Below, piece by piece: positions 12,472 to 61,259 of a stretch of 64,000 bases of DNA. Position 1 is the first letter of the stretch, and the number at the start of each line of letters is the position of its first letter. A program made the translations under genes and the position numbers. Under the pieces are notes generated by a model. The model was not told the DNA's origin. It worked only from the letters and a program-made list of their open reading frames with translations, and made no database searches. This stretch comes from Arabidopsis thaliana. Taxonomy: Eukaryota > Streptophyta > Magnoliopsida > Brassicales > Brassicaceae. The stretch spans positions 10,719,151-10,783,150 of the forward strand of contig NC_003071.7 of assembly GCF_000001735.4 (NCBI RefSeq), read 5' to 3'.

Positions 12472-12874
12472 ATGTCGGCATCAAAAGCAACAATGCTCAT
12501 TTTGTTCGCTCTCTTTCTTTCCGGTAAGTCTTGATTCCTCTCATCTTCTTTTATATAAATGAAACTGATTAGAAACATAGCTTGATTCCAGTCAAATTTT
12601 ATTTTAAAAATGAACAGACATATTGTTGGTGAGCATTCCTAGAGCTGAAGCTCAGTTGATAGTTCCATGCAAGACATCAGAACAATGTAAATCGATTCGA
12701 TGTTCTAATGGAAGCGCACAATGTGTGAACAAACAATGCCAATGTCCAAGCCTCAAACAGATTTACTCGGTGACGGATGTGTCGTGCAAGACGGTCTCTG
12801 ATTGTGTTGCTTCTCATCAATGCCCGACTGGTTTATCTGCTTGTATTGAAGGAAAATGTATTTGTTTGCCTTAG
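12472..12874 (+). CDS. Secreted defensin-like protein with two tandem six-cysteine modules
   Basis: Two exons, 12472-12523 and 12618-12874 (102 residues), with the intron in the signal peptide as is usual for plant DEFL genes. The signal peptide is about 1-30, hydrophobic core MLILFALFL. The mature part holds two similar modules: C-x5-C-x4-C-x6-C-x4-C-x-C (from CKTSEQC) and C-x5-C-x5-C-x6-C-x4-C-x-C (from CKTVSDC). Each lacks the outermost pair of a classic eight-cysteine plant defensin. The second copy suggests an internal duplication. Role unknown; DEFLs act in defence or pollen-pistil signalling. It probably corresponds to AT2G25185 (memory). It stands alone, with kilobases of spacer on both sides. 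Confidence 0.88.
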
Positions 12875-20777: not shown

Positions 20778-21229
<452 letters not shown>

Positions 21230-22470
21230 GAGGTTTACTTTTGCTTATTGTGAGAGCTTTGTTCTTTTGAAAAAGACTTTGTTTTCTTTATCAGTTTTGA
21301 TTGTTCACATTTGTGTAAGACGATCTTTAATCATTTATGTTTCCAAAGTTTCCTGTAGTAACATTGAGTTTTTCATTAGTTTAAAGATTTGGAAATGACT
21401 TTTGGTTAACTTGTTTAATTGGTTCATTGCTCTTCATTCAGTAGAACCAAGTGTTTGTTTTGTTTGGGTGAAATCTACTTGAATACCTTCCCATTTTGGT
21501 TTGTAATTGGTATGATGTGTAGTTAGGGTAGCTCGAGGTTTATAGAAGTGTTGATGAAGTGGTGAATGTTTAGCTTGTAATTACATTGTGTAGCCCAACC
21601 TCATCAGTTTTGCTAATTAGGTAATGGGTTTAGTTATCTTGAGGTTTAAGAAGTTATTAAGTATGAACCTAGCAACATCAAAAAAGATTCATTTTCGTAC
21701 AATCAGATTATTCTATAAAAGTTTTCTTATTCTGTTGATGTATTTTATATCAATGAAAGTGTAAGAGTTTGGCAACACAATTTCTATTGATTAAGGTAGA
21801 CTTATGCAATTTGCTTTTTTGAGTTCGGCAAAAATCTATTAGCTATCTAAATATATTTATATAGTTTTGTATTCTTTGAAATTTATCCAATAATTTTTTA
21901 AAAACAATTATGTGTCTAAAATTATACTCAAATTCGACCTTTTCCCTTGTGAGCAGCAGTTTGTTTAAGGTAAACATCTCAATTGATAAATGGATTTTGT
22001 TGAAAAAACATACAAAACGTAATGGTCAACACAAAAAGCAATGATGTATTAGAGAGGTAATTTTTTTAGGTGTCACCTATATTTGTTAATTGAAGTGTGG
22101 CCATTTGTTTTTTTTTGTCGGCTGTGTTTTTTGCTTCCATTTCGATTATGTTCCAACCGTCGTTATTGACTGTTGGCTCTGCGATTTTGATGCTTAAATC
22201 TTACAAGTTACAACATTCTCTTAAGACTGATTAAAAAAAGAGATGACATATCCTAGTTTCTTGTAATGTTTGGTTGCTTACATAATAATAGTTGAAAATA
22301 TGATCAACCCACCCAAAAACCATAACAACGTTGAATAAACGCATCTTGAAATCTACACGCGAAAGTTGAACATTTTAATGAATGTTATAACAAAGAACAA
22401 GTCAATTTTCTAAAAGTTATCATTAGAAGTTGACAAAAATACCAATTTAGCATTCAAATCAACCCACTCT
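21230..22470. other. Spacer: 3' UTR of eL39, then AT-rich DNA
   Basis: No coding frame supported. The last 150 bp are the likely promoter of the small peptide gene downstream, with a TATA-like CTCTATATATG near 22478. Confidence 0.5.
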
Positions 22471-22626
22471 CTATTCCTCTATATATGTTACACACATATA
22501 GAGAGTTCCATCAACGTTTTCTTCTTTCATTTTCATATTTTCACTTCTTACTCAAAATATTCTTTTGTTATCTAGCCTTTGTGTTATAGTTCAACATATA
22601 ACCACTAAACCTTTTTCAACTAAAGA

Positions 22627-22851
22627 ATGTGGAGATTCATTTTGGTGATGTGTCTTCTAGCTCTGGTCGAAAGGGGAACCTCGGGGAAATTGCCGATATG
22701 GGAAAAGGAGTTAGGAAGATTGCAGGGTTTACATAACCAGCTTCAGCGAGGTCCGGTTCCTCCATCAGAACCGTCACTATGCCACAATAGACTAAACCAT
22801 CTTTCTCATCCAGAGGTTTACTCTTCCCAAACTTACGTTCTTTGCCCATGA
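22627..22851 (+). CDS. IDA-like (EPIP-motif) secreted peptide precursor, candidate
   Basis: An intronless frame of 74 residues. The N-terminus (MWRFILVMCLLALVERGTSG) reads as a short signal peptide. After a charged spacer comes GPVPPSEPSLCHN, matching the EPIP core of the IDA/IDL abscission peptides (P-I/V-P-P-S-x-P-S-x-x-H-N; IDA itself has PIPPSAPSKRHN). A basic residue pair expected before a mature peptide is represented by QR at the boundary. The motif is followed by about 20 further residues, unlike IDA, where it is near the C-terminus. A TATA-like CTCTATATATG lies about 140 bp upstream. IDA peptides are apoplastic ligands of HAESA-type receptor kinases. I do not recall an annotated gene here; a degenerate IDL copy is the alternative. 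Confidence 0.65.
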   Translation: MWRFILVMCLLALVERGTSGKLPIWEKELGRLQGLHNQLQRGPVPPSEPSLCHNRLNHLSHPEVYSSQTYVLCP

Positions 22852-23767
22852 TCATGCTTATTCCGTCGTTGACAATGATCAAATCTCATTTGTTATTTTC
22901 TTTATCTCTGCTCAAACATAATTCATAGTTGTATCTGTGACATTTTGATCCGACTACTCCACCATCTTGAGTCATACTATACGAGATATCTAATCAATTT
23001 TGACTTTTGATCCGACTACTCAAACCTTGTCTATAATAACGTCAACATTTTATATACTAGAGTTCTTAAAAGATCGTTTAAACTTTATCATTCCGAAAAA
23101 GGAGTTCAATAGAGACGCAGTTTACGTGTGGGATCAAACAATATTTTGGTTTCGCACGATTAACATGCGACACAGTTAGAGCATGGAGACGAAAACACTT
23201 GAAAGAAAGTATTATAAGCGAACAAAATGATAGAACTCACAACGAAAACAAAAAGTCACATCACAGCCAAACTAGCTAGACTATTTTACAAAGTTGAGAT
23301 CCTCTACATGGTCTACAAAGACCGTTTCTACAATTCTCAAATGCATCATGGTTAGCTTCAAAACCTTGGATCTAACAATTATATATGGTTATATATATGA
23401 GACAAGTTAATTGAATACTATATTAAACTATTTTCAGGCTATAATGACTCGCTTTGGAGTGGAGCAATGCGTTTGAATTATGATACCATGTTGAATTTCA
23501 AGTTTTTGCCTTTTCCATAGCCGCAAACTGTGATGTGGGAATATATATAAGCAATTTACAAATACAAAAATATAATTATATTTGACAATAAAAAGAAACA
23601 AATATAATTATATAGAACTCAACAACCCTGAAAACTTATATTCTCACATTCTTACCCCCAAACTTTCAGATGAGTGGATCATAACCCTATACAAAAAAAT
23701 ATAAAGGCAAAGGATAAAAGAAAATCATCTAAATGGCTTTGGATTTCTTTTGGCGTGTTTCTGTGAA
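22852..23767. other. Spacer and 3' UTR of the receptor-like kinase
   Basis: AT-rich. A TGATACCAT at 23480-23488 resembles a reversed retroelement primer-binding site, but no paired repeats accompany it. No coding frame supported. Confidence 0.45.
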
Positions 23768-26444
23768 TCATCTTGTTAACCGGAGAGTCCCTCCTAGCTC
23801 TACCGGAACCAGTGGAACAAGTGAGTGAAGAACATCGGTTATCAACGGCCGGTAACTTGGTTCTGGCTGCACGCACAACACAGCCATGGCTGCTACCTAC
23901 CAAAAGAATTAACAGTCTTGATTCAACAATGTACAAAGTATTTGCAATCTAATCAAGCCTAATGAAGCATCAATTAAGTTTAGTGACAAACAAGATGGAC
24001 TTAAGCCGGTTCTATCTCGAAACCAAACCTGGTATAAGTGTTTGAGATCCATTGTATCTTTTATAACGGCATCCACAATGTTTGGAAGCTTGGATCTATC
24101 GGTAAGTTGTGGCATTGCCTACACCATCAACACATCTATATATCACTAACCGTTTCATTTTGTACGTAGAAAGTTGTTAAAACGTACCCAAGTTACAAGA
24201 GATTGGCATTGAGCTGGAGTTAATTTTTCAACTGGTCGTCTACCCAACAAGAGTTCAAGCAGAACTACCCCAAATGCATAAACATCACTCTTATCCGTCA
24301 GTTTTCCTACATACATATCCAAAAATAAACAGTTATATTCATCGCAAAACGATTATTTAAGTGGAAATGTAATCGTATAATGAATCCATGAGAGAGTGAG
24401 ACAAGTACTCAATATATCAAAATAATATCACATGATATATGACTATTATGTGCTACACGACCTAAGATATGAGAACGAGTCAAGAGTGAACATAAGTACC
24501 GTCAAGGAGGTATTCCGGGGCAACATAACCAAGTGTCCCAGAGAGTTTAATGTTGTTCTTGCCATGTTCATCCAGCGATACAGCAAGACCGAAATCTGAA
24601 ATCTGCATTGTTGTAATCAAACAGTAACCAAACAATGCGATTATTCGGTACTCAAAAGCAAATATAGGCAATGATAATGATTGTGAAATTCTCATTTTAC
24701 ATTGAAACAAGAACTAAGATCTAAATCATCTAATCAACAACATTTTGAGGGAAAAAAAGACGCGGTATGAACCTTGGCGTTGAAGGAAGAATCAAGAAGA
24801 ATATTCGAAGATTTCAAATCTCTGTGGATAACTGGTGGACGACAATGCTCATGGAGATACTCTAGTCCTCTGGAGTCAAACAGAGCAAAACGGTTGACAG
24901 AATCAAAACCGATATTAACCGATGAGAAAACCGGTCTAGGAGTTGAAAAAGTGTCGGCTATTTCTTTAAATACCTAGCTGTATCAAGAGCAATCTTCATA
25001 CGCATGTGCCATGTTAGAGCTGATCCACGAGAAGGCCCTAACACATTAATTATAAAGATAACACAATCAATTATAATTATTTAATTCATGTCCTAACTAT
25101 CATTTATAATTTAAGAATACTTCATATGCAAGATACTTCATTGGGTTAAACAAGAGCAAATAAGAACATGTTTTTACCATGTAACTGTTCATCTAATGAT
25201 CCTTTCTCCATAAGCTCATAAACGATGAAACTCGAGTTGATTTCGCTTGCAGAGCCCAACAATGATATAACGTTCGAGTGATGGATCTTGCTCAACAAGT
25301 CAACTTCATTCTGAGATCTCCAAGAATCAATATAGATTCAAGAATCTGAACATGAAAAACAGAACTTGGTTTATGTTATTTATACCTGAAATTCTCGTTT
25401 TGCTTCTTGGCTAACGTTCTCGATCTTCTTGACCGCTGCTTTAACGTTATTGTCCAAACAACCCTTGTAAACGCATCCGAAACCGCCTTGTCCGATTACA
25501 CTACTTTCTTTAAAACCGCCTGTCGCTTTCTCGAGGGTCTTGATATCGAAAAATTGCACGTAACCCTTTTGGATAGAAGTTCTTCTCTGAGTTTTAATCG
25601 AGCCAAGTCGTCTCATTAACAAGGAAAATGAATTCCCACTCTCAGAATCTTCATATAAAACATTGCACCAAGATCAACACATAATCTCACACAAACTTGA
25701 AAGTGATAAGAATCAATGAACTACTAAATCTCAAAGAACAATCAAGAAACTTGAACTTCCATTGAAAACATAGAGTGATTGAAACTTATTGCATATTCTC
25801 TCATTACTGATGAAAGTACCTGAGTTGTTGATGGATTTTGGAGATTGGTTCTTGCGATAAACCCAAAAGCCAAAACAGAACAAGATTATAAGGCCAAGAG
25901 AAGAGAAACTGATTATGAGACCAATCAGAAGTTTCTTATGAGCATCAAATCTATCTTCTTCACCACTTCCCATTTGGATTCCTGACACAGAAAAAAATCC
26001 TTTTAATGATTTTCAACTGTCAAATTTGTCAAGTATGGTTCTTAGAAATTCTGAATCAAACCCATATTTCGAAATTCAAGAAAGAATTCTGATAAGAAAA
26101 ATATAATATTTTCAATTTTTTTTTTTAAAAACAAAAACAAAAAGACAAGAAGTGAGTAGCTCATAAATAGCATTTAATTTATCAAGTTTTAAAAACTATT
26201 TTTTCTTTATATTTTTCGAAGTTCGAGAACGCATAGGCATAGATCAAATCAAGAAACACAGAAACTAAAAAAATAAAATGAAATGAAGTCAACGAGGAAT
26301 AATACGAGGAGAGAATGTAGCCATGGAAGAGTAAACAGGAGCTAAAGAAGGATTTGAAGCAGAAGAAGCAGAGACAGTGATGAAGATCATCAAAAGAATT
26401 AGAGACTGAAAATGAAGAAGAAGAAGAAGAAGAAGCTCTCTCAT
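23768..26444 (-). CDS. Receptor-like protein kinase with short ectodomain
   Basis: Plasma-membrane RD-type Ser/Thr kinase. Ten exons on the minus strand: 26306-26444, 25820-25981, 25386-25648, 25178-25310, 24974-25037, 24773-24869, 24500-24602, 24188-24306, 24029-24118, 23768-23896 (432 residues). Signal peptide from [13 protein letters not shown]; ectodomain of only about 35 residues, without LRRs; one membrane segment near 64-86 ([18 protein letters not shown]). Kinase hallmarks are intact: [11 protein letters not shown], lysine in [29 protein letters not shown]. The start is the ATG at 26444; upstream in-frame codons are non-ATG. The short ectodomain makes peptide or sugar binding hard to predict. 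Probably AT2G25220 (memory), related to AT4G32000. Confidence 0.94.
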
Positions 26445-36466: not shown

Positions 36467-38616
36467 TCAAGATTCCCAGTTGGGAATATTAGCAGTAGCT
36501 TCGTTTATCATTGTCACCAATGTCACCTGCATTGTGTTATACCCACTTAGTGATTAGGACTGTGCAAGAAAACCAAAAGGAAACAAATGAGAGAAGTTTT
36601 GTTTGAAGCTATATATATATACCACGCTCTCGGGAACACCTCGGGGAGGCAGTGTGAGATTTCTTGGGGGTGGTTTATCCCCGTAAGACCGTTTATCGAA
36701 TCTCCATTCTCCAATCTTCCCTACCATCATCTTCCCCTGTGAATTATATAACCAATATAGACAATATAAAACCATGCTTATCTAATAGTATCTTTTATTA
36801 ACTTTCTTATATTGCTTGTTGTTTCATGATTGACATACCTTCATGTCGAAATCACAGCCGTAAGTGTAATGTATTATGAACGTCTTCTTTGTTTCAGTGT
36901 CCCAAGGAGGCTACACCAATAGATAAAACATGAGTTGTTATGATCCGAAATTGGTGAAACTTGTTGGTATACTAAATAAAGTTTTATTAATCAAAACCTG
37001 AATCATGAAGTCCTTGTGTAGAATGTTGCTCACGCCGTGTAACGCAGAAGAAACAGCATATGCATACCTTATAGTGTAAATCAAACATAGATCAATTAAT
37101 TAAACACTATATATCTGGAACTAGAGGGCCGGGGTCACATTAGAGTAGGAGAGAAGTTTACATTTCAAGGACCCAACCAAAAGCTTTATCTGTTTGTGGG
37201 TCATTCTTCATAGCCAAAGAAACATTCATCCATGTTGGAGCAATTTTCATTAATGCATTCTACAAAACCAAGAAAAGTATTAGTCATATTACCATATATG
37301 TTGTCCGGGCAAGGACTTAAACTAGTGCTGCGATTACTATACCTTAGTGACGATCACTGGAGAATTCCCGATGGGATCGATTCTTGATATTGGTCCATTC
37401 TCTTTGGGGAAGAATTTGCGGAGAACCGATTCATATTTCTTTGGTTCAATGTAGAAAAAGGGAAACGCAGCCGCGAGATTGCCTCTAGCTAGGTTTGGTA
37501 TCGGTTTAACTATGATATGATCAGGTTCCGCCATGAGAATGTAACTGACATGATGATCAAGAAACATAGGAAACTATATGAAAATCAAAAATGGCATTCC
37601 CCAACCCAAATATGGGGATTGGAAATCAAACAAACTATAACTATACGATAGGGTATTAATAAAACAAAGTAAGAGTTCTAGATATCAAAATAGTATTATG
37701 AAAATAAGGACTGAGAATGTAAACGATACGTACTCTTCCTCTATATGTGCTTGTTGAAGCCATTGAACAAAGGCCCAAGGCCTATTTAGAACAACATATC
37801 CCTGCACATTATATACAATTCATCATCACATGTTTTTTTTGTGTAAATATTTCTTTAAGAAAATTTCATCATCCTTGGAATAAAATTTACACATATTATC
37901 ATTTGTTTTACGAGGTTTTTTCATGTTTGTTTTAAATCTTATAATTTCATAAAAGATGCTTATGTTTATTAAAAATAATGTTTTAATTTTTTTTTGATAA
38001 AGAAGAAGTTTTATCCTCAACATGATTTCGTGAACATGCATTACTTATTTTGACAAGTCAATCAATAATATAATACAAGATTTGAGATTGTTTTTTTTTA
38101 CGTTACTATTTTCAATTATAAAATAAACCTCTAAATCGAAAAATAACATCATGATGATTCTAAAATCTAGCTATAACCAATACACCTTTCACCAATAACA
38201 AAGAATTAAGTAAGATAAAGAACCTTGTCAACACCGGAGGGAAGAGGGTCAGCAACGAAAGTAGGGATCTCATCCATGAGTCCATCGGGTCGACCCGAAT
38301 GCAAGATCCGGGTATACCCGCCCATATCCGACCCGGGTTCGTCCCTGAACCTGTTGTACCAATAATACATGACCCGACACTGCCACGTGCTGTACACGGA
38401 ATCCGTGGCTGTCACCGCCGTGTGAAACAGTCTCTTTGTCTTCTTTGACGGAGTCTTGACGGTATATGTGATGTCATCTCCGGAAGAAGCTGATCGGCGA
38501 CCGGGGAGTTCTTGCCGGAGAGGAGGATCATCGGAGACTATGTAGTTGTATCTGATTATTAGAAATAACGATAGAGTCATGAGAATTGGGAAGAAGTACT
38601 TCCCACGGAATCCCAT
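36467..38616 (-). CDS. HPAT2: Hydroxyproline O-arabinosyltransferase HPAT2
   Basis: Golgi type II membrane enzyme that adds the first L-arabinofuranose to hydroxyproline in extensins and secreted peptide hormones such as CLEs (known for HPAT1-3). Eight exons on the minus strand: 38224-38616, 37734-37801, 37343-37544, 37162-37259, 36998-37067, 36839-36910, 36623-36736, 36467-36526 (358 residues). One signal anchor near residues 8-25 (FFPILMTLSLFLIIRY), then a stem rich in S/T/K, then the GT95-type catalytic region: WQCRVMYYWYNRFR, GGYTRILHSG, MAEPDHIIVKPIPN and WGWVLEMYAY-like FGWVLEMYAYAVS. Complete, with no broken motif. Probably AT2G25260 (memory). The final coding exon is 60 bp. Confidence 0.95.
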
Positions 38617-50782: not shown

Positions 50783-51271
50783 ATGGATGTTCAAAGATCT
50801 TCATACATTTTCATTGCACTTTCTATCATTGCAATGTTCTTGATCACAGGTGAGTCAATGATACAAAATATTATTAAATGCATATAGTTATCAGGATATG
50901 ATATACAATTATTCAAAGTTAAAAGTTTGGAAGAACATAATGAATGTTCTTTGATTCTTTTTCTTCCCACAAAAAAAAAATTATTCTTTCTTGCTCACTT
51001 TTACGGATAACTATTTATTACACATGTTAATCACTTCACACTTATGATAACTATATATGCTTGGTTTTTGGTTTATGATAAACATAAAATATTTACAGGA
51101 GTAAAACCAGAGGTAAGAGATATTTGTCCAGGAGTGTGCCATGCTGGAATTGAACCAGACTGTGACACACTCTGCATTAGCATGGGGTTTACTGGGGGTT
51201 ATTGTCAAGGATTAACATGTTGTTGCAACCCAAAATCCTCCAAATCCTCAATAATTAATCGTCCAATTTAA
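50783..51271 (+). CDS. LCR81: Defensin-like/LCR cysteine-rich secreted peptide
   Basis: Exons 50783-50849 and 51099-51271 (79 residues), intron after the signal peptide. Signal peptide MDVQRSSYIFIALSIIAMFLI. The mature part has eight cysteines in the order C-x3-C-x7-C-x3-C-x8-C-x4-CCC (starts ICPGVCHAG, ends LTCCCNPKS). The same cysteine framework, with a longer last loop, occurs in the minus-strand gene at 55471-55826, so the two are likely paralogues placed either side of HPGT3. The name LCR81 (AT2G25295) is from memory. Function unknown. Confidence 0.85.
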
Positions 51272-51821
51272 TTATTATTTTTTGTTTTGTATTACTCTTT
51301 TAACTTTTCATACTTATAAAACTTTGCTATGGAAAACAAATATTCAATTAAAAGTTTTATCTCTTATATTTTGTTGGTACTTTTGGTAATAATATTGGCG
51401 TCTTCTCTTACAGAAACGGCCATTTTAAAAAATTGGAATTGCTTATATAAAATTAGAAGTTTCAATTTTTTTTTTTATATGTTCGTTGCAAGATTTTAGA
51501 AACTAATACACACAAATTTTAGAAGATATACGTGCATCTTTCTTTCCCATAACTGAAATTATTTCAAAAATCATGATCCCATGCATATATGAATCTAATT
51601 ATCTTTGTAACGTAAAAATCTATAACTTCTAATAGTTTTATTCGTGGCTCATTTATGTAGGAATCTATTAATTAAAATACATTTTTTTGTTCATTATTCC
51701 CTGGTTTATGTTTCTTCCATAAACTATAAAATAATTAACATCATGTACAAATCGGTGCATTCAACCACCACGACCCATATACATAGACGACGGAAACTCT
51801 AAAGCTCCTCTTTGCCGCTAG
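51272..51821. other. Spacer between the defensin-like gene and the small peptide gene
   Basis: AT-rich 3' UTR and spacer; nothing further supported. Confidence 0.45.
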
Positions 51822-60923: not shown

Positions 60924-61259
60924 TTAAAAAATGCCTAATAATTTGCATGTAACCTTAAGTACGATACGATAGTATAAACGCATAGGAAATAGAATCCCAA
61001 AACAATCTTCGGGAAGACTAAGTAGAATAAAGCAACACTCTTTTGTTATATCTTTTAAATAACCTTGTTTCATTGCCTCTACACAATCTGGAATTTTTCC
61101 TGCATCTTTCACACAAGCCATTGGATTTGGTAGCAACCCATTCTCTGAAATTGGAGCCATTGCAAAATCATTATTACCTTTAGTATCTTCAAGAAGTGAT
61201 AACATCACAACCATCACCGTTAAGATAGACGCACACACTCTTTGTATGCTCTCACCCAT
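60924..61259 (-). CDS. ECA1/prolamin-like secreted cysteine-rich protein
   Basis: Intronless, 111 residues. Signal peptide ending near residue 28 (VCASILTVMVVMLSLLED). The body has six cysteines in the order C-x11-C-x14-CC-x10-C-x18-C (start ACVKDAGKIPDC, then KDITKECCFILLSLPEDC), the pattern of the prolamin-like/DUF1278 family that includes EC1 and other ECA1 gametogenesis-related proteins. Members are often expressed in egg cell, endosperm or pollen tube. Role here unknown. Ends KLLGIF. It stands alone between long AT-rich spacers. Confidence 0.85.
   Translation of the reverse strand: MGESIQRVCASILTVMVVMLSLLEDTKGNNDFAMAPISENGLLPNPMACVKDAGKIPDCVEAMKQGYLKDITKECCFILLSLPEDCFGILFPMRLYYRIVLKVTCKLLGIF

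Follow-up and report, generated by a model that had tools for sequence, protein, structure and literature searches.

A candidate gene for a secreted IDA-like peptide related to the PVPP type in Arabidopsis thaliana

A short GC-rich frame on chromosome 2

The window, by which we mean the whole 64-kb stretch of Arabidopsis thaliana DNA that was analyzed, carries a series of recognizable protein-coding genes. Its Pfam domains run in the order response regulator, PPPDE peptidase, DUF868, ribosomal L39, kinase, Myb, and serpin, then HPAT (hydroxyproline O-arabinosyltransferase) and PB1/TPR. We take this order to place the window on chromosome 2, around At2g25170-At2g25300. Between the L39 gene (+ strand, first frame 20980-21135) and a receptor-kinase gene (- strand, with frames spanning 25973 to about 23909) lies an ATG frame at 22627-22851 (+ strand, stop included), which encodes a 74-amino-acid precursor, MWRFILVMCLLALVERGTSGKLPIWEKELGRLQGLHNQLQRGPVPPSEPSLCHNRLNHLSHPEVYSSQTYVLCP. 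An in-frame stop codon at 22621 lies 6 bases 5' of the ATG. The length of the frame is unremarkable, since the 64-kb window has 127 ATG frames with 50 or more amino acids, and 46 of them are at least 74 amino acids long.

The coding frame stands out from its flanks by base composition. Its GC content is 46.4%, versus 28.7% over the preceding 300 bp and 32.7% over the following 300 bp, and only 3 of 277 intergenic 225-bp segments are as GC rich. Codon usage does not favor the peptide frame. A score trained on the coding exons of the window itself, with exons and noncoding stretches picked by eye, gives the frame 0.159. This value is matched or undercut by 26% of 57 coding pieces and reached or exceeded by 2.5% of 120 noncoding stop-free pieces. 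The other five frames of the same DNA score 0.249, 0.235, 0.217, 0.283, and 0.081. Four of the five thus lie above the peptide frame, so the score mirrors base composition rather than this particular reading frame. A 72-amino-acid frame on the other strand (22637-22855) was rejected as a real gene: despite its higher codon score, it has no Pfam match, no signal, and no motif to argue for it.

A TATA-like element, TATATAT, is present at 22480-22486 (+ strand) and is a candidate core promoter. A preliminary description of this DNA had placed such a box about 140 bp upstream; the element begins 147 bp before the ATG, and it is weak evidence because a TATAWAW 7-mer turns up on average 0.70 times in every 300 bp of the window's + strand. 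W-boxes (TTGACY) are not notable either, with three in 21500-22626 against 1.6 expected. The presumed 5' leader (22511-22626, + strand) is taken to start, at a pyrimidine-rich site, about 30 bp 3' of the TATA-like element. It contains no ATG, and the start codon that follows has an A at -3 (context AACTAAAGAATGTGG). We found no repeat around the frame that would make it part of a repeat. A 17-bp exact direct repeat (TTTTGATCCGACTACTC) lies just downstream, at 22943-22959 and 23005-23021; its starts are 62 bp apart, and it has no further copy anywhere in the window.

Database searches did not assign the locus to a catalogued family. A Pfam search with the 74-amino-acid protein gave no family at E values up to 10, and a search of PDB sequences gave only a meaningless match to a leucine-rich-repeat (LRR) receptor kinase (E 0.64). 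An Rfam search over 21000-24500 and a tRNA search across the window both returned nothing. Among viral contigs, ten pattern matches to the protein were found and none was confirmed; a degenerate DNA pattern for the core, restricted to TCN serine codons, had no match in viral contigs or in prokaryote genome contigs. These collections contain no plants, so the results are uninformative about conservation.

The precursor can be divided into four parts, all on the + strand. Residues 1-20 (22627-22686), MWRFILVMCLLALVERGTSG, resemble a signal peptide by a hydropathy rule and have a small-residue cleavage site after residue 19. They are followed by a variable propeptide (residues 21-41, 22687-22749), which ends in L-Q-R before a glycine. 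Next comes a 12-residue core, PVPPSEPSLCHN (residues 43-54, 22753-22788), which is taken to be the mature ligand, either alone or preceded by Gly42. The C-terminal tail, RLNHLSHPEVYSSQTYVLCP (residues 55-74, 22789-22848), has a second cysteine, at residue 73. By the simple hydropathy rule, the N terminus is the second most hydrophobic in the set of 127 ATG frames with 50 or more amino acids. The preliminary description is borne out here: translation reproduces its coordinates, its length of 74 amino acids, and the letters GPVPPSEPSLCHN, and the start that it called signal-peptide-like ranks accordingly.

Relationship of the core to IDA-like peptides

IDA and the IDA-like (IDL) peptides govern the shedding of organs, the emergence of lateral roots, and responses to stress. 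We built a position-specific profile from 12 distinct published IDA/IDL cores, leaving out the PVPP type described below, and scanned all stop-free 12-mers in the six frames of the 64-kb window. The candidate core has the top score, 23.7 bits, and the runner-up has 12.2. None of 60 random 64-kb sequences attained 23.7 bits (best, 19.0). Leave-one-out scores of the 12 true cores range from 17.2 to 42.8, and the candidate lies above IDL7 only, at the low end of the true members. The exact score tail gives a chance expectation of 0.0003 per 64 kb. The A. thaliana genome is about 120 Mb, over which 0.64 chance occurrences would be expected, so the motif alone is insufficient genome-wide.

The architecture and a published relative add to the motif. 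In random sequence, a fraction of 0.00028 of 12-mers lies within an ATG frame that has 50 to 110 amino acids and a signal-peptide-like start, and does so in its C-terminal half. The product of the two probabilities, with independence assumed, is about 0.0004 expected occurrences of motif and architecture together per 120 Mb. The core also matches the published IDA-like type PVPPSGPSPCHN at 10 of 12 positions, for which 1.7e-4 chance occurrences are expected per 120 Mb; PVPPSGPSPCHN was one of several comparison strings tried, so a factor of 10 to 100 should be allowed on this figure. The likeness of the core to IDA-like peptides, which the preliminary description had proposed, is very probably not due to chance.

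The closest published relatives are the PVPP type. A 2020 survey (PMC7552357), which sought CLE (CLV3/ESR) peptides in annotated coding sequences from 69 plant species, describes three sets of IDA-like candidates. One of them, the PVPP type, comprises seven annotated genes, all said to be predicted to encode PVPPSGPSPCHN, and the clustering reported there places it with IDA/IDL and apart from CLV3. The candidate shares ten of the 12 core residues with this type, including Val2 and the unusual Cys10, in a comparison of cores rather than full-length sequences. The two differences are E6 and L9, where the PVPP type has G6 and P9. The candidate begins with PVPP and, like that type, is nearer to IDA (8/12) than to CLV3 (4/12). 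Two members of the type are drawn with a signal peptide and a core near the C terminus (PMC7552357, Fig. 7 legend), the layout of the candidate. It is not one of the seven PVPP genes, because those are stated to have one identical core. The survey, as described, took annotated proteins and top CLE scorers, so it could have missed an Arabidopsis gene that is unannotated or diverged. The codons at positions 6 and 9 are GAA and CTA, each one transition away from GGA and CCA if these are supposed as starting codons. We propose that the candidate is a descendant or sister of the PVPP type, with Gly replaced by Glu at position 6 and Pro by Leu at position 9.

In the literature searched, the exact strings PPSEPSLCHN and PVPPSEPS occurred in no paper, and the related PPSGPSPCHN occurred in one; the shorter SPCHN, among the literature matches listed, also turned up in an unrelated cancer paper. 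Five guessed locus names from At2g25205 to At2g25225 gave no match. A query requiring IDL9 and IDL10 jointly, which papers on a single name could escape, returned no paper on a plant IDL9.

Within the IDA/IDL family proper, the candidate is closest to IDA (PIPPSAPSKRHN) and IDL1 (LVPPSGPSMRHN), each with 8/12 core identity. Common to all three are S5, P7, S8, H11, and N12, a short intronless precursor, and a basic-Gly site before the core; E6, L9, and C10 set the candidate apart. IDA has 77 amino acids and the candidate 74, with the core in the C-terminal part of both. IDL6 (SVPASGPSKRIN) and IDL7 (SRPGSGPSKKTN) are alike in general layout but reach only 6/12 and 5/12. Unlike them, the candidate retains P3-P4 and the HN end, and it lacks their basic pair. 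IDL6 and IDL7, which the preliminary description had named for comparison, are therefore not its nearest relatives. That description had also singled out an LC in place of KR at positions 10-11. The LC is present, at core positions 9-10 unless the leading glycine is counted, but its cysteine is not peculiar to the candidate: the PVPP type also has Cys10, and what truly separates the candidate from that type is E6 and L9. Nor is the tail the anomaly it was taken for. In print, IDA too continues beyond HN, with SFVNSLPH, and IDLs have up to 13 residues there; the candidate's 20 residues, against the eight of IDA, make a longer tail of the same kind.

Membership was assessed with the criteria that Vie et al. 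2015 (PMC4526919) set for IDA/IDL. The uninterrupted 74-amino-acid frame fits an intronless precursor of fewer than 110 amino acids, as read from the DNA. A secretory signal is predicted from hydropathy and the small-residue rule. Where the definition has a conserved arginine after the signal peptide, the candidate has Arg16 before the likely cleavage point (residue 19-20) and Lys21 just after it. Pro7 and Asn12, the positions of hydroxylation and trimming in IDA/IDL, are both present. SEPS stands where S(G,A,V)PS is expected, LCHN stands in place of (R/K)(R/K)HN with only the HN kept, and 20 residues follow HN instead of at most 13. Accepted members also stray from these rules: tomato members have SSPS, and IDL1, IDL6, and IDL7 have MRHN, KRIN, and KKTN, respectively. 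The candidate's Cys10 also lies outside the R10, K10, and Q10 prototypes (PIPR, PIPK, and PIPQ) into which a review (PMC6681299) is reported to split angiosperm PIP motifs. Because two canonical IDL rules are broken, we label the candidate IDA-like rather than IDL: from its sequence, it is best described as a diverged relative of the PVPP type and not an IDL proper. Membership of PIP/PIPL was rejected, as the candidate lacks the GxGH that by definition forms the C-terminal end with no tail, and it has a 20-residue tail instead. The candidate is outside the 2015 Arabidopsis inventory of nine IDA/IDL and eleven PIP/PIPL loci, 20 in all, none of which is placed on At2g25 (PMC4526919).

Predicted maturation, receptor binding, and alternative readings

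The residues before the core suggest how the peptide might be released. An L-x-(K/R)-G setting, here LQRG, directly adjoins the core, so we infer that Arg41|Gly42 is the natural cut site. IDA is reported to be cleaved at the Lys|Gly of LPKG by the subtilases SBT4.12, SBT4.13, and SBT5.2, yielding GVPIPPSAPSKRHN; its Lys|Gly step lies one residue farther from the core than the candidate's Arg-Gly.

The receptor-contacting residues of IDA are partly kept. Ser62, Hyp64, and Ser65 are described as anchoring the core of IDA (PMC8847575). The candidate keeps these positions as S47, P49, and S50, together with His-Asn. It has no equivalents of Lys66-Arg67, and a cysteine replaces the arginine that normally touches the co-receptor. 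With SERK1 present, the IDA double mutant K66A/R67A is reported to bind HAESA about tenfold more weakly, and overexpression of this mutant to delay abscission, with a possible weak dominant-negative effect. Position 9 alone is tolerant, with Met in IDL1. Because the loss of both basic residues in IDA cuts binding about tenfold, the candidate is predicted to be a weak or competing ligand.

We propose that 22627-22851 is probably a real small gene for the precursor of a secreted, functional IDA-like peptide. Its N terminus would direct the precursor into the secretory pathway. By analogy with IDA, a subtilase would cut at Arg41|Gly42 and the tail would be trimmed after Asn54, while Pro49, the counterpart of Hyp64, may be hydroxylated. 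The resulting product of 12 to 13 residues could then lie extended in the groove of a HAESA/HSL-type LRR receptor kinase. With Leu-Cys at the site of IDA's Lys-Arg, it would recruit SERK co-receptors poorly and might act as a weak, specialized, or competing ligand.

The main rival to a functional gene is a drifting pseudogene. On this account, the frame descends from the PVPP type and has recently lost its function in this species, and the core changes and long tail reflect drift. Two substitutions, one of them to a charged Glu, in a 12-mer described as identical across all seven PVPP-type genes are consistent with such decay, as are the single transitions that would explain both and the absence of a frame signal in codon usage. 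Against decay, the frame is intact and keeps its start context, hydrophobic signal, and processing-like site. The five residues that hold IDA in the receptor core and at its C terminus are kept, and the changes fall at positions that are more variable among IDLs; in the cores compared, position 9 is K, R, Q, C, or M. We consider decay unlikely, though it deserves to be taken seriously.

A CLE-type peptide is very improbable. CLE peptides such as CLE9, CLV3, and TDIF likewise consist of a secreted precursor with a proline-rich 12-mer; the precursor layout is the same, an arginine precedes the core, and the PVPP type itself came from a CLE-motif search. P4, S5, P7, H11, and N12 are common to CLE9 and the candidate. 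Core identity is nevertheless only 5/12 to CLE9 and 4/12 to CLV3 and TDIF, versus 8/12 to IDA and IDL1, and the published clustering, as reported, joins PVPP motifs with IDA/IDL. The CLE cores compared have V3 and a Gly6-Pro7 pair, both absent from the candidate, and a Val-to-Pro change at position 3 is reported to have weakened CLE9-BAM1 binding from about 100 to 3000 nM. CLE membership was rejected, since the candidate has P1, P3, E6, and L9 in place of R/H1, V3, G6, and P9.

A chance origin, in which a noncoding stretch happens to combine a hydrophobic-start ATG frame with an IDA-like string, would fit the commonness of such frame lengths, the near-expected TATA-like and W-box counts, the codon usage, and the genome-wide expectation for the profile score alone, but the 10/12 match and the combination of score and architecture leave it scarcely credible. 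Whatever likelihood remains beyond these readings belongs to something else.

If the frame is a functional gene, it would matter in several ways. An IDA-like gene beyond the 2015 list could complicate mutant studies that assume a complete family. A core with the receptor anchors but without the SERK-contacting pair would offer a direct test of whether weak or competing ligands occur naturally in plants, since the engineered K66A/R67A IDA is already described as possibly weakly dominant negative. The PVPP type, on which there is hardly any work, would gain a representative in the model plant. Most of this interest would be lost if the gene were unexpressed or already annotated. A more speculative and rather improbable extension is that Cys10 defines an IDA-like class that has purposely given up the SERK-contacting basic residues. 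Its Arabidopsis member could, on that view, naturally antagonize HAE/HSL signaling or activate it in part, or it could be a redox-gated ligand in which Cys52 bonds to Cys73 of the tail or to another peptide, and it could tune abscission, root emergence, or stress responses.

Other secreted-protein features of the window

Several further features of the window concern secreted proteins. A first exon for a hydroxyproline O-arabinosyltransferase lies at 38209-38616 (- strand; Pfam HPAT, E 6e-27), about 16 kb from the peptide frame. Hydroxyproline O-arabinosyltransferases decorate the hydroxyprolines of secreted peptides; the closeness of the exon to the peptide frame is probably a coincidence. 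Cysteine-rich stop-free stretches (at least 6 Cys per 50 residues) occur at 12614-12763 and 51071-51220 (+ strand), and downwards around 55632 (- strand). These resemble exons of small defensin-like secreted peptides, e.g., LIVPCKTSEQCKSIRCSNGSAQCVNKQCQCPSLKQI.

Two other frames have signal-like starts. The 56-amino-acid frame at 51329-51499 (+ strand), MENKYSIKSFISYILLVLLVIILASSLTET, has the most hydrophobic N terminus of the 127 frames and no Pfam match; it may be an exon that codes for the signal peptide of a further small secreted protein. The 111-amino-acid frame at 60927-61259 (- strand) has a signal-like start and matches Prolamin_like weakly (E 7e-4, short of the curated cut-off), and it possibly encodes an ECA1-type reproductive secreted protein.
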